The notes beneath the pieces are model-generated. The model did no database searches. It worked only from the letters and a program-made list of their open reading frames with translations, and was not told where the DNA came from. From the NCBI GenBank assembly GCA_914767715.1, contig OU612068.1:4898001-4962000 (forward strand): a stretch of 64,000 bases of DNA, in the 5' to 3' direction. Position 1 is the stretch's first letter. Each line of letters begins with the position of its first letter. This DNA is from Membranipora membranacea. Taxonomy: Eukaryota; Bryozoa; Gymnolaemata; Cheilostomatida; Membraniporidae. The translations under genes were made by a program, and so were the position numbers. This document shows positions 5,986 through 64,000 of this stretch, piece after piece.

Positions 5986-8900
5986 TAGGTTGGGTGGATT
6001 TGACAACAAAACTTGCTGAATTTTTTGACCATCAGGAGCATCTGGATTTTGTGTTGACCTTGGACACCTTTCGGTATTGTATTCATCCAATATTTCATAA
6101 TACATTATTCCATCAACTATATCGAATACGTCACTTAGAGTCCCATCCTGTTGTGTATTTATTTCATAATCTACATACGCCTCATAGGTCCGATTTATCA
6201 TCTCCAATTCTGATACAAACGGGCCCAGCGGTTCAGGCCAGTTACCAACATAGAAGCTACACACTGTGACCATATATTTGCCATCTACCAAGTAATGCTG
6301 AAAGATAAGATAAATATATGCGCTATAATACTCATTCTGGTCAAAATCAAGCTTAGTTATTTCAAGATTATACTGTTGTCATGTCATGTTTATCCTATGC
6401 ACTGTTCACCGATGGGTTATCAATGGGTTATCATTTTGACTAGGGAGTAAGTCCTTGCTTTGACATTAGGTTCCTTTTTATAGTTGATAAAATATTCAGC
6501 TGTAAGAAAGATGCGAAACCTTTCTCTATTTTTGGACTGTGGAGACTAAAACAATCAGCCCTGAATGCCAAAATGTGAAAAACCAGAATGGTATTCATTT
6601 CTGAATTAAGTATTTCAAAAGTTTTTGAGGCTAATATGATTGCCATGTTGTACGCTTACTGTAGGTTCGGTGTATCCTTTGTCTGTCTGAATTTGCCCCA
6701 ACTCATCCTCCAGGTCCTCCAGGTCAGTTAGGTCTGTATACTTGTAATGGAACTCAACATCGGTGGTCTTCATCTGAACTCCGACCACCATCAGTTTTGT
6801 GCAATCTTTTGGAACGGAACTCAATTCCTCTGTTAGAGCATTCAACATCGGTTGGTATCTATTCTCAGTGAACAGCCTAATTTTGTCATTTTGGCTACAT
6901 GTGCGTAAAGGCCTTAGAATAGCTTCAACCTTGGCACAGAAGTCACCGATGTCTGTGCCTTTGAGCCCTAAAATAATACTTGCAAATCTATCGGTCAAAT
7001 TTGAGACTTTGGTTCTAACTGTTTCCAGAACTTGTATTAGGTTGATCGGTTGCTCATTTGTGGCGTTTCTCTTTGCTTTCTTTAACTCCTGGTCGAGTTG
7101 GTTGATAAATGAGCCACCCCAGTCACCATGAGCAACCTCGCCTACTGAACATGTTCGGTAAGTGATAACACTCTGCGTCTCGTCTCGTCTCTCATCTTCG
7201 TCAGCGTCATCGACTGTCAGGTTTTCTGGACAATCGTCAGGTTCAACCACTCTGCAGGCATCCAATATGAATATCTGTAATATAAGCCAATAGATAAAGC
7301 ATTGGCGACTGATCATTCTCGGTTGAAATGATTACATAACATACATGAATGAAGTAGGTGTTCAATCATCAGATGTTATTCTCTAGCTAACTTTCGTGAT
7401 TAGCCTGAGAACAGTTTGATGTGGGTATTCTGTCGCATATATAATCCAAACATCACACTTTGAAAATCCCAGTTGTTGCTCTATTGCAGTAATTATTAGG
7501 AATTCCCGATTACGAATATCACAATAAAGGTTTGTCCGAAAAGTGGTAAGGCTTATTGGTATGCTACTCAAAAAATTCGACCAAGTCTGAAAAAAGATTG
7601 ATCATGCACGATCTAGCCATTATCTGAATTGCCGAGCAAGTATTAATTCATTTGTTACACGCCTTTGCACTTACATCTCAAGTCATGTCAGGTTACCAAG
7701 CAGAGGTGTTTTTAAAATAACTTGAATCACGATTCACACAGACAAAAGTGGTATGAAATGAGCACCACCTGGTCAAATTGAACTACTGCAAAGGAATCAT
7801 AGTTCAGCACACTTCAAGCTGTGGTCATGTCCTACTTACCTTAGGCACATGAGAAGATCTAGTCTTAATTTCTCGCTGAATTGATTCAATCTTGACCTGT
7901 TCCTTTTTGTCATCCAATAAATGACCTTCTACTCCATGTGTCAGCCCAATTACGAGTAGAATCGTGCATGTTGACGAAATTTCTCTTGATATTTCGCTCG
8001 GTAGTGTCGAGCTATTCCATAGATCTGGGTCAAGATTCCGCACCTTGAAGTGTAGTTGAGTTAGCGTTTTCTCTATTTTGGCTGCATCATTTTCACTATT
8101 GGATTCAAAATCCCAGAATATGATGGCTTCCATTAAACCTTTAACTGATGTACGTGGTGGTATTTGACCAGCTACTTCATGCCGATGTTCCACGGGAATA
8201 ACTTCTAAGATGCAATCTCGCATGCGATTACTGTAAGTCTGTCTTCTCAACCAAACCAAAAAATTTGTCTGAACTAGTTTCCTTCTCAGATTATCAGGAT
8301 ACATCTTCACAAGGTATTCCATGACTTGACATACATCATTGTTGATAACCAGCCCAAGAGCAGGTGAGTCTGGTTGGTCTAAGAATTGCCTTTCAACATA
8401 TTCATCTGGTAGACTTTTCACGACGGCTAGTAGATATTCGGCACCTGCACGATTTGCTATCGGTAGAAAGTGTGGCTCGTCCATGCCCTTCCAAAGAACT
8501 GTACTAGGAATACGCAAAAGCATCATATCTTCTGGTTCAATACTTTTCTTTTCCAGAGCTATCATCAACGGTGTCATTGAATCGGTGTTTGCTATCATGA
8601 GCGGGTGGTCGACATTGGGCTCTTTTTTTTGCTCTGCTTGAACGAGGAACAAGAATAGAGAGCCTGTTCTTTCATCACCAGCTGCAATGTGCAAAGCTGT
8701 ATTGTTTTTGTTGTCTTTGTGGTTTATGAAACTCGTGGCAATCTCTGGACCTAGATCACTCAGACAACCATATACTTTTTTCTGCAGACTATCGGAGTTG
8801 ACACTTCCGTGCATTTGTTTGATTTCTACACATCTTCGTAATATATTAGCACCTTTCGAATCTTCACACTCCGTCAACAGGTTTAGAAATTCTGTTTTAG

Positions 8901-10177
8901 TAAAAGTGATGTTGTATCTTCTTTTTACACCATTGTAACTGTCTCCAATAAACTCTTTACAAAATATCAGCACAGTACGTATACCATCTCTATCACATTT
9001 ATCCAGGGCAACGGCGAGAGCGGTTTTGTTGTTGTTTTGGTGCATTATAAAGTCATGCTTCTGATTGCTTTCTGAAATGTTATTCACCAGTTCTGCCAAG
9101 TCCAGCTGTTTGTCGTCATTGTCGTAACTGATTCTCTTTCTTTTCCTAAAAATGGATGCGAAAGTAATTTGTTTACATTGACAACAATATCTGTTTACAA
9201 TGTAACTGGTTCAGGCGAAAAACATAATGTGACATTTGAAGTTGAAGCTGCCATGGGCCTCTGAGATCCTCTTTTACTCAGATGCAGATTCGAAAGGAAA
9301 AACTTTAACATACCGAAGCTGAAGGGGTCAAGAGCTCTAATAGGTTGAATGCTTCCTTAAGTGTTAAACCAATATTCAAAGCATACAATATGCTGTCACA
9401 AGCAGGCCTGTAAGAGGGGGAAGCACCTTAGACGAACTCAAATTTTATAACCACCGAAAAACTCCACTCATTAGTTGGGTTGCATAACTGAAAAGTGAAT
9501 GAAGTTTGTTTCACTAATAAACTAACAGTCAAGAAAAAAGGTGGTTACTCCAAAATCCCTATAGTATTTGGACTGAAATGCCGTCAGATTGCCTTCTTGG
9601 CCTTTGGCCACCAAAACCGACAGATACATTGCCTTCAGCTAGATCCACATCAAAATCAACAAACAATCCAACAACAGCAAACAACATCGGACTCTAAACT
9701 TAAACAATCATTCAGCTAACGGGCTGCACATATGGCTAAAAGATGTAACATGCAAACTAAAAATGTAACAACATTGGTCAGCCAAAATAGAGAAAGTCAT
9801 ACTCTACAAGTTCGAATCCGATTTCAAATACAATACAAAACTTCCTTATTTTCTCTTCATCTAGTGAAAATTAGTGCTAGCTAACAAGTCAATAAGATCT
9901 CGTGGCGTAGTACTATTGCACATGTCTGGTATCAAGGTGCAACGCCATGACGCTCTAGAGTAACCCTGAAGCAAACATACTAAAAATAAACAGCATTTAA
10001 AACATTCTTATGTGGAGGAGGGTAGTGGTATGAAACCGTACAATTACAAAATTCATTACTCTGGAGTTTCTGATAGGGAAACCTCAGTTCTCACTGTGAT
10101 TGTTTCATCACGGATAGAATAAAACATGTAAGTAAACGCATTACTCACAATTCTCCAGTCAGCTCCGGGTTTGCCAT
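5446..10177 (-). CDS. Ankyrin-repeat caspase-like protein with LINE-derived C-terminus
   Basis: Four exons agree in phase: 10149-10177 (ATG at 10177), 7840-9145, 6660-7274 and 5446-6297, giving 933 residues. Ankyrin-like repeats occupy about residues 39-75 and 150-220 (NNTALHIAAG, DSMTPLMIALE). A peptidase C14 domain spans about 345-560. It has the conserved N-terminal strand and helix (AIIFWDFESNSENDAAKIEK), the catalytic histidine in GLTHGVEG (His413), the catalytic cysteine in FILDACR (Cys452) and a p10-like GGSFINQL near 498-505. An intron separates the histidine and cysteine exons. Caspases cleave proteins after aspartate in cell death or immune signalling; that activity is inferred. The last ~175 residues come from a LINE, whose tail also supplies AATAAA (5378-5383). 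An alternative is a separate transcript starting at an ATG at 7316 with a leader-like hydrophobic start, but the shared phase favours one gene. Confidence 0.75.
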
Positions 10178-12185: not shown

Positions 12186-24946
<12,761 letters not shown>

Positions 24947-38656: not shown

Positions 38657-40415
38657 CTATAAAACAGCCACTATATATATAATTATATCCTGAACGTAGA
38701 ATTCAGACTTAAGAAATCTCATATCTGAGCTCAGCGGAGGGCCACAGAAGCGACACATAATTCTGTACATGAGCGGGCATGGGTTAGTTACAGTAGAAAA
38801 GAGCCTAAGACATTTCATTATCAAGAAATATAATTTCATTATAATAACCATCATAATATTATATTCAACATAATTTATATTAGGTTGAGTTTTTGATGCA
38901 ATTATGGTAGTTTTCGTTCAACACAAACATGAAAACTTTCTACTAAAATAACAGGGACATTCTGTGAGGCCGGAGGCCGCATTTAAATGATTATGTTTAT
39001 TGCTGCAGGCTTCACATTCTTATATTTGTATCAGTAGGCATGGGAAACTGCACATAAATACAATATAAGGTTACAGAACTGTCAAACAATCTCTCCCACA
39101 GCACAATTGCCATACTACTCCAAAGCCTCACAGGTGAGCATATAGCTAGGTAAAAAAAGCTTTCTGGTTAAACAAACCAACCGGTTATGAGAAACTATTA
39201 TTTGATGAGGTGGTTGCTGGTCAAATCTGGGACAGACAAAGATACTATGAACCGAAGTTACTGATGAACTTACGGTGGATGTAGTGGGAGAAAAGTCCTC
39301 AAAGTAGTCATCAGTTACAGCAGGGAGAATACCTGGGCCTGTCTGCCTAGTTAAAGCTCTAGTTCCTTTCTCCTGAAAGTAGAATTCAGACTTATATTAC
39401 GATTTAATTACCATATATCTGAGCTTTGGACAGGGTAACAGAAGCAACACAAAATTTTGTACAGGAATGGGCCTGGGTAAGTTGCAATAGAAAATAGCCA
39501 CAGTCGTTATCAAGAAACAAAATATTATCATATAACAATTATTATAATATATTAATCGTAATTCATATTAGTTGGAGTACTTAACCAATTATGGAGTTTT
39601 ATTTCACCATAAACAGAAAACTGTCTACCTAAAAAACAGGAACACTAACATTAAGTTGCTATAATGGTTCCTACCAAGAAATTCAAACTTTGATGACCAA
39701 ATTCAGTCACAACATATCGAGATGGGTTTCATGATGCAACATCGATCAGATTTTTACTTCATATCAAAATAGTAAGACAGTCTGCTACAATGTGCGGCAT
39801 GCAGCTCAGGAAACATGAAGAAAAATCTCTGCAAACTACACAAAAGCTTGTTTGAGGCTACACTGAGTCATAAATTGCAAGAACCCAGATTATTTGAGTA
39901 TGAAATATCTGCTAATAATGAACAGAAGCATTATCTCAATGCATAAGGGATTAGAAACGCATACATTACGACTGAAGGTAAATCTATCTTATGTAAAATA
40001 CAATGAAAAGTGATACACCCATGGGTGTTGGTAGTAGCATTACATAATCGATAATTTTGGGAGGGGAAACTGGTTGATGATGGAATGCTACTATATAATA
40101 AAATATTAATCATCTTAATTTCAAACCATTGGTATGCTACCTTAAGAATAGTGGCCACCCTTACAGGTTTTGGTACAAGAGAGAAACAAAAAATGATGAA
40201 ATGCATAAAACTTGTTTGTTGGCATCTCGGATTAAAAAGGAAATAATTAACATAAAAATTAATGACCCCTGGGTGACATTGGCTCTTTTTTCGTGAGTAG
40301 GCAAATGAAACCGGGAAGTCAAGGCTTTAGAACAGAAACAAGAGAAGAAAATTAAAAACCTCAAATACTTACATCTCTAGCTTCTTGCATCTTCATCAGT
40401 AGGTAAAGGAGTACC
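38657..40415 (-). CDS. Small unrecognised gene or gene end, three exons
   Basis: Three exons agree in phase: 40373-40415 (ends GAT|GTAAGT), 39274-39372 (TTTCAG|GAG to ACC|GTAAGT) and 38657-38689 (GTTCAG|GAT to TAG). They encode VLLYLLMKMQEARD, then EKGTRALTRQTGPGILP and TDDYFEDFSPTTST, then a hydrophobic end, DIIIYIVAVL. An ATG in the first of these could start a 51-residue protein, or earlier exons may lie beyond the LINE repeats. The hydrophobic C-terminus suggests a tail anchor, which is inference. The acceptor of the last exon lies in a duplicated copy of the intron end that precedes exon 39274-39372. I do not recognise the family. Confidence 0.4.
38691..39650. repeat. Tandem duplication of ~280-bp intron segment
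   Basis: Segment 38691-38975 resembles 39373-39650. Shared blocks include GTAGAATTCAGACTTA, ATATCTGAGCT, ACAGAAGC and TTATCAAGAAA followed by an AT-rich part. Divergence is substantial, so the duplication is old. Confidence 0.75.
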
Positions 40416-40447
40416 CTATGTAGAACTCGGTGATACAGTGATTATTA

Positions 40448-41644
40448 TTAGTTCACACGCATTATCAACAATGCATTGAACCATTTTTACAAATCAACTG
40501 TTGCAAGAATGACGGATTTAGCAGCGAGTTGAGTCACAGCCGGCAGACAGCTCGATGCTCTAGCAATGAAAATATAATAATAATGATAATAAAGTTTATT
40601 CATAAAACGCTTAATAAAATCGTTTAGAAACAAATGATTTCTAAGCGGTGTTCATGTGATAAAATGTTAAAATCGAAACACATATTATGAAACAAGCCTA
40701 TAGCTGATAAATAAATAAAATGTATTAAAATTTTATCATAGAGTACTAATGAGATGAAAAATATGATGATAAGATAATTAAAGCCTAAAAGTGACAACTG
40801 CCCAGCACCTTAAAATTCACTATAAAACCTTCAGATATGGGGTATATTAGTTCACACGCATTATCAACAATGCATTGAACCATTTTTACAAATCAACTGT
40901 TGCAAGAATGGCAGATTTAGCAGCGAGTTGAGTCACAGCCGGCAGACAGCTCGATGCTCTAGCAATGAAAATATAATAATAATGATAATAAAGTTTATTC
41001 ATAAAACGCTTAATAAAATCGTTTAGAAACAAATGATTTCTAAGCGGTGTTCATGTGATAAAATGTTAAAATCGAAACACATATTATGAAACAAGCCTAT
41101 AGCTGATAAATAAATAAAATGTATTAAAATTTTATCATAGAGTACTAATGAGATGAAAAATATGATGATAAGATAATTAAAGCCTAAAAGTGACAACTGC
41201 CCAGCACCTTAAAATTCACTATAAGACCTTCAGATATGGGGTATATTAGTTCACACGCATTATCAACAATGCATTGAACCATTTTTACCAATCAACTTTT
41301 GCAAGAATGGCAGATTTAGCAGCGAGTTGAGTCACAGCCGGCAGACAGCTCGATGCTCTAGCAATGAAAATATAATAATGATAATGATAATAAAGTTTAT
41401 TCATAAAACGCTTAATAAAATCGTTTAGAAACAATTATTTCTAAGCGGTGTTCATGTGGTAAAATGTTAAATTCGAAACATATTATGAAACAAGCCGGTA
41501 GCTGATAAATAAATAAAATGGATTAAAATTTTATCATAAAGTATTGATGAGATGAAAAAATATGATGATAAGATAATTAAAACCTAAAAGTGGCAACTGC
41601 CCAGCACCTAAAAATTCACTATAAAACCTTCAGATACGGAGTAT
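40448..41644. repeat. Three tandem copies of a 399-bp LINE 3'-end segment
   Basis: TTAGTTCACACGCATTATCA starts copies at 40448, 40847 and 41246, period 399. Copies 1 and 2 are almost identical and copy 3 is more diverged. Each contains AATAATGATAATAAAGTTTA, in the style of a LINE 3' UTR. The array directly adjoins the coding end of the LINE relic at 41645-42125, so it looks like a multiplied 3' UTR. Confidence 0.9.
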
Positions 41645-42125
41645 AGACCTCACGGAACAGAAGGGTTTTCAAATGTGGTATAAAAGAGGGAGTAGAAGAG
41701 AGATCGTGAAGGTAGGATGGATGGGAGTTTCACACAAATGGTAAAAGTAGAATTAAAAGATCGACCACCCACTGTAACTAATCTGCATTTTAAAATTGCT
41801 CACCAGTGTGTTGGCTAAGTTAAAACGAGTGGATCGAGCATGCTTAAAAATTGACAAAGATTTAGAAATGTATGAAGCGATGAGATGGGGATGATGGACA
41901 ATTTTATGGGCCAAGATTGACAACTTGAATCTAGATCGGATCCAGTGCAGTCCAATCCTGGCTTCAGTGGCTGTTGAAATGTGGTTTGTGCCTGTAATAC
42001 ATTTGGGACAGGAATTCTGAATCACATGGAGAAGTGAGAATGAGACTGTCGAGTAATGCGAAGAAGAAAGAGTTACATAAATCAAGCCTACTTGTTATGA
42101 AGGCACGGATGAGTGTGTTCTAATT
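41645..42125 (-). mobile_element. LINE relic (reverse-transcriptase C-terminus, frameshifted)
   Basis: The minus strand reads NTLIRAFITSRLDLCNS, a classic reverse-transcriptase motif, then shifts frame to ARIGLHWIRSRFKLSILAHK and SYISKSLSIF, and shifts again to PSFIPHLKTLLFREVYT. At least two frame breaks make it a dead copy. Confidence 0.85.
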
Positions 42126-53944: not shown

Positions 53945-55671
53945 TCATCTAGATAAATACCTGGCAGCCTGTCTAATTTGTTTGCCAGCTCGGCTGAAAC
54001 ACCTCCATACGCCCCTCCTACCTCGTCGCCTGCGCTGAATTGGCTCTGCCCTAAAATATAAATCAGATACAATGAAGATTATTTGGGTGTAGGCTCTGGT
54101 GGAAAACTCCATGGATTAAAGTAAAATAATGTAATTAGTATCAAACTTAATTGTGCAGCGCTCACCAACACTAAAAAAACTCATGGTGAATTGATTTCTT
54201 ATCAGCACTGCTTTCGTCAATTCTCCTATCAGTAAATTCACTGCACAGATTATGATTAAAACTGATAATAGAACTCACTCCTCAACAAATGAAGGGACGG
54301 TCTCATTGGAATATGATGTCTGTAAATGAGAAAAGAAATTAAGAGATTGGAAAAGATCACACTTAATTAGCAAACAACAATGACGATAATAAAGCTTTGT
54401 CTTCTTATCTAACAAGTGGGAACAACTCTTGATCTATAATCACATCGATATATAAATGCGCCCTGCAGTACAGCAGAAGTCTTTGTCTCATAGTCATTAC
54501 TCTATGCTCCAAATTGTGTAGCAAAGACTTGTGGACTGCAGGGCTAATCATCAGATTGAACAGATCAGTGACTGTGTAGCTTTTTAAGATATTGGGTAAG
54601 ATTCATGTATAAATGATTTTACTGCGATATGTACTCGAGACTCTTTTCAGCTTACCTCATAAAAAGAAATGTCTGATAAACTGCCTGTCTGGCTGTCCTC
54701 AGGTGTAGGTACACAAAGTTCTGTTATTAGACTGTATAAAAACGTCAGCGAGATAAGTTTTCTGAAGGATATCAGACATTAGAAGCTAAAGAACATATTC
54801 CTAGTGGTAAGAGCATGAGACCCCATAACAATCGTAATCCTAGGTATTACTGACCATTTGTTGGATTATTCTGAAATAATAGTGGGGTGTAAGCAACTCT
54901 AAAACTTCCAATATTGGGTATTTTATTCCATCATTCAATTGGCATTTAACTGTGGCAACCAAAAGAGACTCATGGATCAAGCACATGGTTTGTTATTGCG
55001 TCTGTTGGATGGTTTGGGAGAGAAAGAAATTTGCCTTGATTTCGGAATCGTTAGAACAACAAATTGCATGAATGCTGTATCATATGACAGTGTATAGTTG
55101 CATTAAGATAATCAGATTGGACATGAAGACAATTATTTATCTGATAAGACTTACCTCTGGATCGTCTTTCTGTTGTTTGCAATATAGTGAATAATGGTTC
55201 TTAAGCGCTCTCGCTGTAAATATATGATAATGATATGATATATTACACACACAATATATAAATATATATACATACATAATATGATCTAAGATTTGTATCA
55301 TTGGTACTGATTTTACCTTAGCTGAACGAGTAATGTGGCCAGGGGGGGGGGGTCTGTATGGCGGGGGGGGGGGAGAGTTTGGGAGGCTCAAACTATTAGT
55401 GTGATAGTTAAGAGGTTTACATTGTACATATTCTCCTTAATATAAGAAACTCCCACCATACTCAAATGAAAGAATTGAAACAATATAAGAAATTGCCACG
55501 ATTGTGGGTGCTGTATCTCGTAGAATTGTCAATAGATGAGGTCAAAACGTCACTTACTGACATAAATCAGATAGATACACCAACAATACCAGCGTCGTCT
55601 GCAGAGAGCAGTAGGGTGACTTTAACCAATGAGTAGATTAATGTTATCGCTGTTTCAGCTGGGCATATCAT
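53945..55671 (-). CDS. Putative secreted cationic-peptide precursor, copy 1
   Basis: Six exons: 55590-55671 (ATG at 55671), 55155-55213, a 16-base microexon 54855-54870, 54656-54720, 54279-54319 and 53945-54050, about 122 residues. The order is a hydrophobic leader (MICPAETAITLIYSLVKV, ending LLLSA before DD), a short RALKNHYSLY segment, an acidic part (PTPEDSQTGSLSDISFYE, TSYSNETVPSFVEE), a run of arginines (QRRRRGRR) resembling a furin site, and a cationic end (GVWRCFSRAGK, IRQAARYLSR). AATAAA follows the stop by about 30 bases (53908-53913). This is the layout of antimicrobial-peptide precursors; activity is inferred. The exon-1 donor is the weak point: G|GTATTG and G|GTGTAT both keep phase. 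This copy differs most from the others, with Trp and Cys in the terminal peptide. Confidence 0.55.
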
Positions 55672-55985
55672 GCCAAATAAACTAAAAATTATCAACAGAA
55701 AGTTTGTGATAGGGGATATCAGATTTCAGTTGCTATTGAACATGGTGTTAGTGGTAGAAGCAGTGAAGGGAGTTCATCAGTATAGAAGCATGAGACCCGA
55801 GAAAATTTTGTTATGTTATGTTGGAATTTGTTATAATTTTATGAAGTGTCTCGGACTGTAGCAGCATTTTTAATATTACTAAACATTGTAATTTGTAATC
55901 CCATTTCAAAATGATTCCTACAGCAACTCTTGCGCAGTCCCAATAATTTATTGCACAGCTCAAAGCAATCACACCGAAGCTTTCA

Positions 55986-57694
55986 TCAAGATAAATACCT
56001 GGTGGCCTGTCTTATACCTTTTCCAGCTCCATGGAAACGCCCCAGTACTCCCCTCCTCCTTCGTGTCCTGGGCTGAACTGGCTCCGCCCTAAAATATGAT
56101 TCAGATACAATGTGAATTATTGGGGTTTAAGTATTGGTGGAAAGCTCCGTTGATAAAAGTAAAATAATGTAATTAGTAACAAACTTAATTGTGCAGCGCT
56201 CACCGACACTAAAAAAACTCATGGTGAATTGATTTCTTATCAGCACTGCTTTCATCAATTCTCCTATCAGTAAATATACTGCACAGATTATAATTAAACT
56301 GATACTATAAGTCATTCCTCAACAAATGAAGAGACGGTCTCAGTGGAATATAACAACAACAATAACGATAATAAAGCTTTGTCTTCTTATCTAACAAGTG
56401 GGAACAACTCTTGATCTATAATCACATCGATATATAAATGCGCCCTGCAGTACAGCAGAAGTCTTTGTCTCATAGTCATTACTCTATGCTCCAAATTGTG
56501 TAGCAAAGACTTGTGGACTGCAGGGCTAATCATCAGATTGAACAGATCAGTGACTGTGTAGCTTTTTAAGATATTGGGTAAGATTCATGTATAAATGATT
56601 TTACTGCAATATGTACTCGAGACTCTTTCCAGCTTACCTCATCAAAAAAAAAGTCTGATAAACTGCCTGTCTGGCTGTCCTCAGGTGTAGGTACACAAAA
56701 TTCTGTAATTAGACTATATAAAAACGTCAGCGAGATAAATATTCTGAAGGATATCAGACATAGAAGCTAAAAAACATATTCCTAGTGGTATGAGCAAGAG
56801 ACCCCATAAAAAATCGTAATACTAGGTTTTGCTGACCATTTGTTGGATTGTTCTGAAATAATAGTGGAGTGTAAGCAACTCTAAAACTTCCAATATTGGG
56901 TATTGAAACTCTAAAAGAATTTTATTCCATCATTCAGTTGACATTTAACTGTGGCAACCAAAAAAGACTCATGGATCAAGCACATGGTTTGTTATTGCGT
57001 CTGTCGGATGGTTCGGGAGAGAAAGAAATTTGCCTTGATTTCGGAATCGGTAGAACAGCAAATTGCATGAATGCTGTATCATATGACAGTGTATAGTTGC
57101 ATTAAGATAATCAGATTGGAATGAAGACAATTATTTATCTGATAAAACTTACCTCTGAATCAGTTCTCTGTTGTTTGCTATATAGTGAATAATGGTTCTT
57201 AAGCGCTCTCGCTGTAAACAATGAACTAAAGGTTTAGTTCATTGCTGTAAATATATGATAATGATATAATATATTGCACACACACACATATATATATACA
57301 TACATAATATGATCTAAGATTTGTATCATTGGTACTGATTTTACCTTAGCTGAGCGAGTAATGTGGCCAGGGGGGTCTGTATGGCGGGGGGGGGGGAGAG
57401 TTTGGGAGGCTCAAACTATTAGTGTGATAGTTAAGAGGTTTACATTGTACATATTCTCCTTAATATAAGAAACTCCCACCATACTCAAATGAAAGAATTG
57501 AAACAATATAAGAAATTGCCACGATTGTGGGTGCTGTATCTCGTAGAATTGTCAATAGATGAGGTCAAAACGTCACTTACTGACAAAAATCAGATAGATA
57601 CACCAAAAATACCAGCGTCGTCTGCAGAGAGCAGTAGGGTGACTTTAACCAATGAGTAGATTAATGTTATCGCTGTTTCAGCTGGGCATATCAT
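55986..57694 (-). pseudogene. Cationic-peptide precursor, copy 2, middle exon lost
   Basis: The exons are 57613-57694, 57153-57211, 56837-56852, 56638-56702 and 55986-56088, all with good splice sites. The exon matching 54279-54319 is broken: a deletion near 56355 removes its acceptor, and its donor GTGAGT reads ATGACT. Skipping this 41-base exon shifts frame and would lose the cationic end, though the last exon itself is still open in the cationic frame (PRTRRRRGVLGRF, RQATRYLS). AATAAA is at 55947-55952. It is probably non-functional, or makes a different C-terminus. Confidence 0.5.
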
Positions 57695-58022
57695 GCCAAA
57701 TAAACTAAAAAATATCGACAGAAAGTTTGTGATAGGGGATATCAGATTTCAATTTCTATCGAACATGGTGTTAGTGGTAGAAGCAGTGAAGGGAGTTCAT
57801 CAGTATAGAAGCATGACACCCGAGAAAATTTTGTTATGTTATGTTGGAATTTGTTATAATTTTACGAAGTGTCTCGGACTGTAGCAGCATTTTTAATATT
57901 ACTAATATAGGGTACAGACACATTGTAATTTGTAATCCTATTCCAAAATGATTCCTACAGCAACTCTTGCGCAGTCCAAATATTTTATTGCACAGCTCAA
58001 AGCAATCACACCGAAGCTTTCA

Positions 58023-59746
58023 TCAAGATAAATACCTGGCGGCCTGTCTTCTACGTTTTCCAGCTCTATGGAAACGCCCCAGTACTCCCCTCCTCCTTCG
58101 TGTCCTGGGCTGAACTGGCTCCGCCCTAAAATATGATTCAGATACAATGTGAATTATTGGTGGAAAGCTCCGTGGATAAAAGTAAAATAATGTAATTAGT
58201 ATCAAACTTAATTGTGCAGTGGTCTCCAACACTCAAAAAACCATGGTGAATTGATTGCTCATCAGCACAGCCTTCATCAATTCTCCTATCAGTAAATTCA
58301 CTGCACAGATCATAATTAAAACTGATAGAAGTCAACTCACTCTTCAACGAATGAAGAGACGGTCTCAGTGGAATATGATGTCTGTAAATGAGAAAAGAAA
58401 TTAAGAGGTTGGAAAAGATAACACTTAATTAGCAAACAACAATGACGATAATAAAGCTTTGTCATCATATCTAACAAGTGGGAACAACTCTTGATCTATA
58501 ATCACATCGATATATAAATGCGCCCTGCAGTACAGCAGAAGTCTTTGTCTCATAGTCATTACTCTATGCTCCAAATTGTGTAGCAAAGACTTGTGGACTG
58601 CAGGGCTAATCATCAGATTGAACAGATCAGTGACTGTGTAGCTTTTTAAGATATTGGGTAAGATTCATGTATAAATGATTTTACTGCAATATGTACTCGA
58701 GACTCTTTCCAGCTTACCTCATCAAAAGAAATGTCTGATAAGCTGCCTCTCTGGCTGTCCGTAGGTACACAAAATTCTGTTATTAGACTATATAAAAACG
58801 TCAGCGAGATAAATATTCTGAAGGATATCAGACATAGAAGCTAAAAAACATATTCCTAGTGGTATGAGCATGAGACCCCATAAGGAATCGTAATACTAGG
58901 TTTTGCTGACCATTTGTTTGATTGTTCTGAAATAATAGTGGAGTGTAAGCAACTCTAAAACTTCCAATATTGGGTATTGAAACTCTAAAAGAATTTTATT
59001 CCATCATTCAGTTGACATTTAACTGTGGCAACCAAAAAAGACTCATGGATCAAGCACATGGTTTGTTATTGGGTCTGTCGGATGGTTCGGGAGAGAAAGA
59101 AATTTGCCTTGATTTCGGAATCGTTAGAACAACAAATTGCATGAATGCTGTATCATATGACAGTGTATAGTTGCATTAAGATAATCAGATTGGACATGAA
59201 GACAATTATTTATCTGATAAGACTTACCTCTGGATCGTCTTTCTGTTGTTTGCTATATAGTGAATAATGGTTCTTAAGCGCTCTCGCTGTAAATATATGA
59301 TAATGATATAATATATTGCACACACACATATATATATATATATATACATACATAATATGATCTAAGATTTGTATCATTGGTACTGATTTTACCTTAGCTG
59401 AACGAGTAATGTGGCCAGGGGGGGGGTCTGTATGGCGGGGGGGGGGGGAGAGTTTGGGAGGCTCAAACTATTAGTGTGATAGTTAAGAGGTTTACATTGT
59501 ACATATTCTCCTTAATATAAGAAACTCCCACCATACTCAAATGAAAGAATTGAAACAATATAAGAAATTGCCACGATTGTGGGTGCTGTATCTCGTAGAA
59601 TTATCAATAGATGAGGTCAAAACGTCACTTACTGACATAAATCAGATAGATACACCAACAATACCAGCGTCGTCTGCAGAGAGCAGTAGGGTGACTTTAA
59701 CCAATGAGTAGATTAATGTTATCGCTGTTTCAGCTGGGCATATCAT
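58023..59746 (-). CDS. Putative secreted cationic-peptide precursor, copy 3 (intact)
   Basis: Six exons: 59665-59746, 59228-59286, 58911-58926, 58718-58776, 58341-58381 and 58023-58125, about 119 residues. Exon 4 has lost six bases compared with the other copies, exactly two codons, so the frame is kept. Exon 5 differs from copy 1 by two third-position silent changes and two replacements. The end has PRTRRRR followed by GVLGRFHRAGK and RQAARYLS: strongly basic, glycine and alanine spaced, likely an amphipathic helix. All splice sites and AATAAA (57984-57989) are present. With copy 1 this is the best candidate for a working gene. Confidence 0.6.
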
Positions 59747-60060
59747 GCCAAATAAACTAAAAATTATCAACAGAAAGTTTGTGATAGGGGATATCAGATT
59801 TCAATTGCTATCGAACATGGTGTTAGTGGTAGAAGCAGTGAAGGGAGTTCATCAGTATAGAAGCATGACACCCGAGAAAATTTTGTTATGTTATGTTGGA
59901 ATTTGTTACAATTTTATGAAGTGTCTCGGACTGTAGCAGCATTTTTAATATTACTAAACATTGTAATTTGTAATCCCATTTCAAAATGATTCCTACAGCA
60001 ACTCTTGCGCAGTCCCAATAATTTATTGCACAGCTCAAAGCAATCACACCGAAGCTTTCA

Positions 60061-61772
60061 TCAAGATAAATACCTGGTGGCCTGTCTTATACCTTTTCCA
60101 GCTCTATGGAAACGCCCCAGTACTCCCCTCCTCCTTCGTGTCCTGGGCTGAACTGGCTCCGCCCTAAAATATGATTCAGATACAATGTGTATTATTGGGG
60201 TTTAAGTATTGGTGGAAAGCTCCGTTGATAAAAGTAAAATAATGTAATTAGTAACAAACTTAATTGTGCAGCGCTCACCGACACTAAAAAAACTCATGGT
60301 GAATTGATTTCTTATCAGCACTGCTTTCATCAATTCTCCTATCAGTAAATATACTGCACAGATTATAATTAAACTGATACTATAAGTCATTCCTCAACAA
60401 ATGAAGAGACGGTCTCAGTGGAATATAACAACAACAATAACGATAATAAAGCTTTGTCTTCTTATCTAACAAGTGGGAACAACTCTTGATCTATAATCAC
60501 ATCGATATATAAATGCGCCCTGCAGTACAGCAGAAGTCTTTGTCTCATAGTCATTACTCTATGCTCCAAATTGTGTAGCAAAGACTTGTGGACTGCAGGG
60601 CTAATCATCAGATTGAACAGATCAGTGACTGTGTAGCTTTTTAAGATATTGGGTAAGATTCATGTATAAATGATTTTACTGCAATATGTACTCGAGACTC
60701 TTTCCAGCTTACCTCATCAAAAAAAAAGTCTGATAAACTGTCTGTCTGGCTGTCCTCAGGTGTAGGTACACAAAATTCTGTAATTAGACTATATAAAAAC
60801 GTCAGCGAGATAAATATTCTGAAGGATATCAGACATAGAAGCTAAAAAACATATTCCTAGTGGTATGAGCAAGAGACCCCATAAAAAATCGTAATACTAG
60901 GTTTTGCTGACCATTTGTTGGATTGTTCTGAAATAATAGTGGAGTGTAAGCAACTCTAAAACTTCCAATATTGGGTATTGAAACTCTAAAAGAATTATAT
61001 TCCATCATTCAGTTGACATTTAACTGTGGCAACCAAAAAAGACTCATGGATCAAGCACATGGTTTGTTATTGGGTCTGTCGGATGGTTCGGGAGAGAAAG
61101 AAATTTGCCTTGATTTCGGAATCGGTAGAACAGCAAATTGCATGAATGCTGTATCATATGACAGTGTATAGTTGCATTAAGATAATCAGATTGGACATGA
61201 AGACAATTATTTATCTGATAAAACTTACCTCTGAATCAGTTCTCTGTTGTTTGCTATATAGTGAATAATGGTTCTTAAGCGCTCTCGCTGTAAACAATGA
61301 ACTAAAGGTTTAGTTCATTGCTGTAAATATATGATAATGATATAATATATTGCACACACACACATATATATATACATACATAATATGATCTAAGATTTGT
61401 ATCATTGGTACTGATTTTACCTTAGCTGAGCGAGTAATGTGGCCAGGGGGGTCTGTATGGCGGGGGGGGGGGGGGAGAGTTTGGGAGGCTCAAACTATTA
61501 GTGTGATAGTTAAGAGGTTTACATTGTACATATTCCCTTAATATAAGAAACTCCCACCATACTCAAATGAAAGAATTGAAACAATATAAGAAATTGCCAC
61601 GATTGTGGGTGCTGTATCTCGTAGAATTGTCAATAGATGAGGTCAAAACGTCACTTACTGACAAAAATCAGATAGATACACCAAAAATACCAGCGTCGTC
61701 TGCAGAGAGCAGTAGGGTGACTTTAACCAATGAGTAGATTAATGTTATCGCTGTTTCAGCTGGGCATATCAT
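60061..61772 (-). pseudogene. Cationic-peptide precursor, copy 4, middle exon lost
   Basis: The exons are 61691-61772, 61229-61287, 60912-60927, 60713-60777 and 60061-60163. It is nearly identical to copy 2, including the deleted acceptor and mutated donor of the 41-base exon (60378-60425). The last exon stays open in the cationic frame (GVLGRFHRAGK). AATAAA is at 60022-60027. The shared lesion shows copies 2 and 4 arose by duplication of a two-unit block. Confidence 0.5.
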
Positions 61773-62100
61773 GCCAAATAATCTAAAAAATATCAACAGA
61801 AAGTTTGTGATAGGGGATATCAGATTTCAATTGCTATTGAACATGGTGCTAGTGGTAGAAGCAATGAAGGGAGTTCATCAGTATAGAAGCATGACACCCG
61901 AGAAAATGTTGTTATGTTATGTTAGAATTTGTTATAATATTATGAAGTGTCTCGGACTGTAGCAGCAATTTTAATATTACTAATATAGGGTACAGAAACA
62001 TTGTAATTTGTAATCCCATTTCAAAATGATTCCTACAGCAACTCTTGTGCAGTCCAAATAATTCATTGCACAGCTCAAAGCAATCACACCGAAGCTTTCA

Positions 62101-63783
62101 TCAAGATAAATACCTGGCGGCCTGTCTTATACGTTTTCCAGCTCTACGGAAACGCCCCAGTACTCCCCTCCTCCTTCGTGTCCTGGGCTGGTATGGCTCC
62201 ACCCTAAAATATAATTCAGATACAATGTGTATTATTGGGGTTTAAGTATTGGTGGAAAGCTCCGTGGATGAAAGTAAAATATTGTAATTAGTAATAAACT
62301 TAATTGTGCAGCGCTCTCCAACACTCAAAAAACTCATGGTGAATTGATTTCTTATCAGCACTGCTTTCATCAATTCTCCTATCAGTAAATTTACTGCACA
62401 GATTATAATTAAACTGATAATAGTCAACTCACTCCTCAATGTATGAAGGGACGGACTCAGTGGAATACGATATCCAACAATAACGATAATAAAGCGTTGT
62501 CTTCTCATCTAACAAGTGGGAACAACTCTTGACATATAATCACATCCGCATTTAAATGCACCCTGCAGTACAGCGGAAGTCTTTGCCTCATAGTCATAAC
62601 TCAATGCTCCAAGTTATGTAGCAAAGAATGGTGGACTGCAGGTCAATTCATCAGGTCGAACAGATCAGTGACCGTGTAGGTTTTTAAGATATTGGGTGAG
62701 ATACATGTATAAGTGATTTTACTGCAATATGTACTCGAGACTCTTTCCAGCTTACCTCATCAAAAGAAATGTCTGATAAACTTCCTGTCTGGCTGTCCTC
62801 AGGTGTAGGTACACAAAATTCTGTTATTAGACTGTATAAAAAACGTCAGCGAGATAAGTATTCTGAAGGATATCAGACATTAGAAGCTAAAGAACATATT
62901 CCTAGTGGTAAGAGCATGAGACCCCATAAAAAACCGTAATCCTAGGTATTACTGACCATTTGTTGGATTATTCTGAAATAATAGTGGGGTGCGAGCAACT
63001 CTAAAACTTCCAATATTGGGTATTGAAACTCTAAAAGAAATTTAATTCCATCATTCATTTAACTGTGGCAACCAAAAAAGACTCATGGATCAAGCACATG
63101 GTTTGTTATTGGGTCTATCGGATGGTTCGGGAGAGAAAGAAATTTGCCTTGATTTCGGAATCGGTAGAACAGCAAATTGCATGAATGCTGTATCATATAA
63201 CATTGTATAGTTGCATTAAGATAATCAGATTGGACATGAAGACAATTATTTATCTGATAAAACTTACCTCTGGATCGTCTCTCTGTTGTTTGCTAGATAG
63301 TGAATAATGGTTCTTAAGCGCTCTCGCTGTAAATATATGATAATGATATAATATATTACACACACATATATATATATATATATATACATACATAATATGA
63401 TCTAAGATTTGTATCATTGGTACTGATTTGACCTTAGCTGAACGAGTAATGTGGCCAGGGGGGGTCTGTATGGGGGGGGGGGGGAGAGTTTGGGAGGCTC
63501 AAACTATTAGTGTGATAATTAAGAGGTTTACATTGTACATATTCTCCTTAATATAAGAAACTCCCACTATACTCAAATGAAAGAATTGAAACAAGATAAG
63601 AAATTGCCACGATTGTGGATGCTCTATCTCAAAGAAATTGTCAATAGATGAGGTCAAAACGTCACTTACTGACATAAATCAGATAGAAACACCAATAATA
63701 CCAGTGTCGTCTGCAGAGAGCAGTAGGATGACTTTAACCAATGAGTAGATTAATGTTATCGCTGTTTCAACTGGGCATATCAT
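62101..63783 (-). pseudogene. Cationic-peptide precursor, copy 5, middle exon acceptor lost
   Basis: The exons are 63702-63783, 63268-63326, 62957-62972, 62756-62820 and 62101-62203. The 41-base exon keeps its GTGAGT donor but its acceptor region is deleted (near 62475). The last exon is open in the cationic frame (VEPYQPRTRRRR, GVLGRFRRAGK, RQAARYLS). The polyadenylation motif is changed to AATGAA (62022-62027). Exon 4 differs from copy 1 by a silent GGC to GGA change. It is the most diverged of the right-hand copies. Confidence 0.45.
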
Positions 63784-64000
63784 GCCAAATAATCTAAAAA
63801 ATATCAACAGAAAGTTTGTGATAGGGGATATCAGATTTCAATTGCTATTGAACATGGTGCTAGTGGTAGAAGCAATGAAGGGAGTTCATCAGTATAGAAG
63901 CATGAGACCCGAGAAAATGTTGTTATGTTATGTTAGAATTTGTTATAATTTTATGAAGTGTCTCGGACTGTAGCAGCAATTTTAATATTACTAATATAGG

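Follow-up and report, generated by a model that had tools for sequence, protein, structure and literature searches.

A tandem array in Membranipora membranacea, probably amplified from the 3′ third of an orphan gene with many exons

Is a run of closely similar 2 kb units, each of which reads like a gene for a short basic peptide, a cluster of small genes or a set of pieces copied from something longer? The question is raised by a window of 64,000 nucleotides from the bryozoan Membranipora membranacea (contig OU612068.1, here C4, positions 4,898,001–4,962,000; the whole genome comprises 339 Mb in 18 contigs). A sequence-only reading of this window had proposed five adjacent antimicrobial-peptide precursor genes, each with a hydrophobic leader, an acidic part, an RRRR processing site and a basic end peptide. 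Our analysis favours, with a probability of about 0.62, a different answer: one gene of an orphan family had its 3′ third (exons e2 to e7 together with the poly(A) signal) copied in tandem, and recently, to give the array.

The units themselves are much as first described. Five adjacent minus-strand units of about 2 kb lie in the window and, aligned in transcript orientation, are direct repeats of 92–99% identity, a level that suggests recent amplification. Two extra units lie beyond the window edge, and the array extends to seven (u1 to u7) over C4:4,951.9–4,965.2 kb. Since u2 and u4 are 99.1% identical while u3, placed between them, is 96.6–96.9% identical to each, the array probably grew in part by duplication of two-unit blocks. 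The basic frame of the last exon, e7, is open in all five window copies and in 7/7 units overall, and the rival frame (frame 2) runs into an early stop in u2, u4 and u5 and continues in u1 and u3, as the sequence-only reading had it. Also correct were the RRRR run in all five window copies, the six-base in-frame deletion in e4 of the third copy and the AATAAA behind the stop in four of the five; u5 has AATGAA.

The relatives of these units are longer genes. A search of the genome at the DNA level gave 31 matches, and 13 stretches, which take in matches and the remaining array, were examined with flanks. Gene models were built by exon-by-exon tblastn and splice-site scans and then translated, and are thus predicted from sequence alone. 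Alignment of four of the stretches, L014 to L017, revealed more exons than the array units have. Intact paralogs lie at C4 7.73, 11.22, 11.96 and 12.02 Mb, with 11–16 exons encoding 268–493 amino acids: g013 (11 exons, 268 residues), g014 (16 exons, 493 residues), g015 (13 exons, 428 residues) and g017 (11 exons, 391 residues). GT-AG ends and consistent phase are present throughout in these four of the five assembled copies; the fifth, g016, is broken, its frame shifted by a shortened e3. For a further relative, L011, the comparison was exon-wise, with no assembled model. The array units align to the relatives from the intron between e1 and e2 through the 3′ flank of the stop, and the frames of their exons agree with those of the phase-consistent exons of the intact paralogs.

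The basic exon e7 closes all four intact models, and in each the first exon lies far upstream of e2 and encodes 38–42 residues with a hydrophobic stretch (best 19-residue Kyte–Doolittle mean 2.15–2.53 in g013, g014 and g017). An intact member would open with a short hydrophobic segment at the N-terminus, followed by a linker whose small symmetric (phase 0) exons are tandem-duplicated in some members, a fast-diverging middle (e2 to e6) and, at the C-terminus, an arginine-rich tail under constraint (e7). The duplicated block starts in the intron before e2, so that the units have neither a start exon nor an N-terminal hydrophobic anchor nor upstream linker exons of their own. As to the linker, a 63 bp phase 0 exon (ERETAVRTDRDIGALCVTTTT) occurs five times at a spacing of about 318 bp in L014 (C4:12.02 Mb, gene-oriented positions 20042–21379), and g015 (L015), the sister of g014, carries the same exon twice (63 and 57 bp).

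The supposed leader probably does not begin a gene. It is homologous to e2, which in L011, L013 and L014–L017 lies inside the gene and is entered through a splice acceptor. We rejected it as a signal peptide on this ground; judged by the same homology, the array units would have none in a first coding exon. Exon e2 occupies window positions 55579–55681 in u1, 57602–57704 in u2, 59654–59756 in u3, 61680–61782 in u4 and 63691–63793 in u5 (here and below, exon positions in the window refer to the minus strand). By exon-by-exon tblastn, neither e2 nor e3 was found in the outermost unit. The e2 acceptor is intact in all six units that bear the exon, and entry by it leaves one leftover base, the frame of e2 being fixed by the exon before it. 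An ATG within e2 (MICPAETAITLIYSLVKVTLLLSADDAG...) is common to the six array copies and is not found at that position in L011, L013 or L014–L017. One could suppose that each unit is a small independent gene that starts at this ATG and yields a secreted product, cut at RRRR to a cationic antimicrobial peptide of about 21 residues. The array-specific ATG would suit such a gene, as would an e2 more hydrophobic in the array (best 19-residue mean 1.63 in u1) than in g013 (1.11) or g014 (0.34) and the tail charge, which is +7 to +8 in each of three array units for which it was calculated. However, e2 is internal in the relatives, a lysine within its hydrophobic stretch and a glutamate before it would make a poor signal sequence, and five of the seven units cannot join the acidic and basic parts in frame through e56, as described below. 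With no constraint seen in the array either, we regard independent peptide genes as improbable.

The joining of the two parts depends on e56, an exon of 41 bases that shifts the phase and thereby brings e4 and e7 into a common frame. L011 and L013 keep both of its splice sites; within the array only u1 (54279–54319) and u3 (58341–58381) do. Five of the seven units (u2, u4, u5, u6 and u7) have lost the acceptor, with no search made for a nearby substitute, and u2 and u4 have lost the donor as well. Acidic-to-basic joining in frame by way of e56 is thus possible in the array only in u1 and u3. Joint skipping of e4 and e56 (e3 to e7) would retain the basic frame and lose the acidic part. The remaining exons of the window units are e3 at 55155–55213 (u1), 57153–57211 (u2), 59228–59286 (u3), 61229–61287 (u4) and 63268–63326 (u5); the acidic e4 at 54656–54731 (u1), 56638–56713 (u2), 58718–58787 (u3, with the six-base deletion), 60713–60788 (u4) and 62756–62831 (u5); and e7 at 53945–54050 (u1; AEPIQRRRRGRRGVWRCFSRAGKQIRQAARYLSR and a stop, with acceptor TATTTTAG), 55983–56088 (u2), 58020–58125 (u3), 60058–60163 (u4) and 62098–62203 (u5). 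A small conserved stretch (RIDESSADKKSIHHEFF) lies about 120–175 bases upstream of e7 in all units, after an AG and in frame with e56, and could be an alternative end. It is closed by a stop in u1 (54171–54225, with a similar stretch in relatives), u2, u4 and u7; u3, u5 and u6 have no stop at the corresponding position. Before e3, u2 and u4 have in common a 33 bp insertion (window ~57215–57250 and ~61291–61326) with a near-perfect palindrome inside it (CAATGAACTAAA/TTTAGTTCATTG) that also doubles the TTTACAG acceptor.

Substitutions within the array look unconstrained. The polymorphic columns of e2, e3, e4 and e7 fall at codon positions 1/2/3 in numbers of 18/14/16 for the five window units and 19/15/16 for seven, and 28 of 35 polymorphic codons are nonsynonymous against a neutral expectation of 72% (binomial p = 0.35); because both the even codon positions and the share of changed residues match neutrality, no constraint is seen. 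The excess of silent third-position changes put forward as support for coding is therefore absent. Between diverged groups the situation differs for the tail. The ratio of nonsynonymous to synonymous substitution rates (dN/dS) between the array and L011/L013 is 0.62 for e2, 0.61 for e3, 0.69 for e4 and 0.24 for e7; between g014/g015 and g016/g017 it is 0.06 for e7 and 0.26–0.80 for e2 to e6; and for e7 across the two lineages of the family (both B groups against A) it is 0.32. When diverged groups are compared, the basic tail, with a lower ratio than e2 to e6, is thus the constrained part of the family and the one best conserved. In neither comparison does a variable exon exceed a ratio of 1. 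The young pair g014 and g015 has nine nonsynonymous and no synonymous changes in e2 and e4, numbers too small to test.

These data also bear on whether the units code for anything at all. Satellite-like repeats with chance frames would account for a repetitive array that has no constraint in itself, but the phase-consistent intact genes of 11–16 exons largely refute that idea, the 97 exon mismatches between u1 and g013 (e56 excluded) introduce no stop (P about 0.01–0.03), and e7 is under the constraint given above; a non-coding origin is very remote. The units are coding in the sense of a remnant whose frames match those of intact paralogs. They lack the 5′ end, show relaxed constraint and still have open frames, and we describe them as a tandem array of 3′ fragments (pseudogenes). 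They are probably decaying and would yield no functional protein today. What stands of the proposed precursor array is the acidic-then-basic layout, the RRRR run and the cationic tail; complete, independent secreted-peptide genes do not, given the lack of first exons and the lost e56 acceptors.

A missing head might lie further away. No first or linker exon was clearly identified over C4:4,962–5,002 kb, whether by tblastn with seven head-exon queries or by blastn with the gene of L013, nor by tblastn with 11 exon queries over C4:4,968.7–5,022 kb (best E 0.08), so that none is recognised in the ~57 kb upstream of the array, to C4:5,022 kb. The upstream stretch does hold one e1 exon (RNGISICIFYIVNDIQQQVFALIQ), near C4:4,966.4 kb and followed by a weak donor (GTGTAA), as well as intron pieces, adjoining transposon-like sequence; the open frame next to this e1 is presumably part of a mobile element. 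Downstream of the array, a second family remnant has a linker-like (h2-like) exon (EKGTRALTRQTGPGILPAVTDDYFEDFSPTTST) at 39274–39372 on the minus strand. Also on the minus strand are three tandem copies of about 399 bp at 40367–41645, each with a decayed family first exon; the repeats span 40446–41645 and the first exon of the third copy extends to about 40367. The tail exons of the second remnant were not found in the window by tblastn. It is as if part of a neighbouring copy had been left behind.

The upstream e1 invites another interpretation, in which one distant head (this e1 and beyond) splices to any of the six units with an e2. The units would then be working alternative 3′ cassettes that give isoforms with differing C-terminal thirds, and most of them would supply a poly(A) signal themselves. 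All six e2 acceptors are intact, the frames are open, including that of e1, and the family duplicates cassettes elsewhere, as with the linker exon of g014 and g015. Set against this are the unrecognised first and linker exons, the weak e1 donor, the broken e56 splice sites in five of seven units and the absence of visible constraint inside the array, and we consider working cassettes quite unlikely. More doubtful still is a system of variety on three levels, with tandem first exons, tandem symmetric linker exons and tandem interchangeable 3′ cassettes, in which, along the array lineage, exon divergence is two to four times that of the intervening introns.

That last difference is clear only in the lineage of the array and L011/L013. 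Three array units differ from the gene at C4:7.73 Mb by 25–29% in exons and 8–16% in introns. For u1 and g013 the exons mismatch at 107/376 positions; the introns mismatch at 73/937 when BLAST blocks are counted after masking of the exons (p = 9e-21) and at 112/953 by segment-wise alignment (p = 1e-12). The exon excess is also present in u3 and u5 against g013 and in u1 and u6 against g011 (segment-wise p 1.1e-2 to 2.5e-10; the exon/intron pairs run left out u2 and u4), and in the young pair g011 and g013 (exons 17/376, introns 24/1537 or 25/1596, p = 0.001). It thus occurs in 6/6 pairs run from the array/L011/L013 lineage, with segment-wise p of 1e-2 to 1e-12. From e4 to e7 the mismatches between u1 and g013 are clustered in the exons and, within e7, in its core. 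Synonymous divergence (dS) per exon is high too, at 0.36–0.72, and therefore the exon excess is not simply the result of selection on amino acids. Homogenisation of introns or segment switching would fit.

Several observations weigh against this account of the array and of the divergence. Units u1 and u3 have GT-AG at all junctions from e2 to e7, e2, e3, e4 and e7 have an open frame wherever they are present in the array, and no stop occurs among 50 polymorphic columns where about two are expected (P about 0.1). The upstream e1 has an open frame, and a distant or missed head could therefore still splice in. As regards the tail, dN/dS of e7 is 0.79 within the array and 0.44 for g016 and g017 (one change of each kind), against 0.06–0.32 between diverged groups. 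The exon excess is weaker segment-wise for u5 and u6 (p = 1e-4 and 1e-2), and in the A lineage it is found in none of four pairs segment-wise and two of four in BLAST blocks. One-pass global alignment gave a significant excess in 0/10 pairs of the array with L011/L013 and in 0/6 A pairs. We attribute the former null to misalignment caused by a length difference of about 260 bases in the e3–e4 intron, and the segment-wise and BLAST-block counts supersede the one-pass alignment. Finally, the 3′ flank of u1 differs from that of g013 at 104/392 columns, and the low intron divergence may thus in part reflect conservation of introns.

What the intact genes encode may be considered from their two ends. 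Their first exons and the tail suggest a single-pass membrane-anchored protein that varies in its middle and is rich in arginine in its tail. The charges flanking the hydrophobic segment (+2 against −1) favour a cytosolic C-terminus in g013; g014 and g017 are undecided (−2 on both sides). The basic tails carry a charge of +5 to +8 with a helical hydrophobic moment of 0.40–0.76 (seven tails, four from relatives); in u1, u3 and u5 the end peptide after the basic site, where cleavage is putative, has a charge of +7 to +8 and a moment spanning the same range. The RRRR of the window units is RRRK in the seventh unit and RRQGRR in L011/L013, and is lost in the copy in L021. It is conceivable, although unlikely, that the intact family (and not the array) encodes membrane-anchored pro-proteins from which the C-terminal basic peptide is freed at RRRR in the style of BRICHOS-type antimicrobial precursors. 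An anchor-like N-terminus, a long middle and, in the A lineage, RRRR ahead of a cationic tail under constraint are in keeping with this. The altered or lost basic site in L011/L013 and L021 is not, there is no BRICHOS or other significant Pfam match, and, should the topology guessed from the charges of the B type be right, the tail would be cytosolic and beyond furin.

Searches by homology gave no relatives. The joined family proteins had nothing significant in a protein collection (E up to 0.01 and 0.1), a search that reaches only relatives sharing short exact words. A Pfam-A hmmscan of three joined family proteins at E up to 10 found no BRICHOS, although the HMMER filters drop most very weak matches. 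Pfam and PDB searches at E up to 10 found no significant family relative; PF00517 (E = 0.065) and an acyl-CoA-binding protein (E = 0.27) were dismissed as chance matches. Rfam and tRNA scans across the window gave nothing. The family thus appears to be a previously undescribed, multi-exon orphan.

Further copies are present elsewhere. A genome search with the last exon found at least ten places at E up to 0.01, namely four A-lineage genes, two on contig C9 and four array copies; L011 and L013 are not among the matches listed. The two on C9 are at 1,865,505 and 1,873,416 (L021), and the sequence upstream of the last-exon copy in L021 is, we take it, reverse-transcriptase-like. At C6:27.78 Mb (L018 and L019) three relatives have e6 and a possible alternative terminal exon, with no e7 recognised.

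Some known systems are instructive. BRICHOS-type antimicrobial peptide precursors, such as nicomicins, are long, with an acidic proregion and a C-terminal cationic peptide, and amphibian skin peptide precursors are short, with their own signal peptide, an acidic stretch, a basic processing site and a cationic end peptide. The array units, in contrast to the latter, have no first exon. A signal sequence is described for nicomicins (PMC6265681), whereas the family here has an anchor-like N-terminus and no BRICHOS match. In snake three-finger toxin genes, as two reports describe (ASSET, exon segment switching; PMC2474615, PMC2711939), intron segments are more than 85% alike, exon segments have 12.5–50% identity and the mechanism is unknown. 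Similar introns and strongly different exon segments among paralogs are the likeness to the present family. The toxin genes have three exons, whereas the intact genes here have 11–16, and we found no relation in sequence or domains; no secretion or venom is known for the family here, and the exon excess is clear only in the array/L011/L013 lineage. The sea urchin immune genes Sp185/333 (PMC1988830, PMC3091723) also form a large, diverse, clustered family, but they have two exons and not 11–16 with an anchor-like first exon; this comparison is by description, not sequence.

Elsewhere in the window, SMC5-like exons on the minus strand at 18660–19442 (PDB 9lwi, E = 2.6e-5) mark the sequence as eukaryotic, and the minus-strand frames at 13.6–23.4 kb presumably belong to the same gene. 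At 6615–9210, also on the minus strand, are frames with weak matches, one to ankyrin and two to caspase domains, of which the ankyrin and one caspase are below the Pfam cut-off. The frame of 461 amino acids among them (ankyrin/caspase-like, 7825–9210) had no relative in the protein search, which has the reach stated above.

By analogy with the three-finger toxin genes, the diversity of this family may be exon-limited divergence, and a role in recognition, defence or offence is its most likely cause, a guess whose sole basis is the divergence pattern. The locus illustrates that what raw sequence plausibly presents as an array of peptide genes can in fact be a longer gene's tail, amplified. Were a distant head after all joined to the array by splicing, the units would act as germline cassettes for exchanging the C-terminal third of an arginine-tailed protein anchored in the membrane. 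The undescribed family has an unusual and measurable pattern, with exons that diverge at least as fast as introns and cassette exons duplicated in place. Should its intact members be expressed, they would be a good test case for the origin of exon-limited diversity outside venoms.

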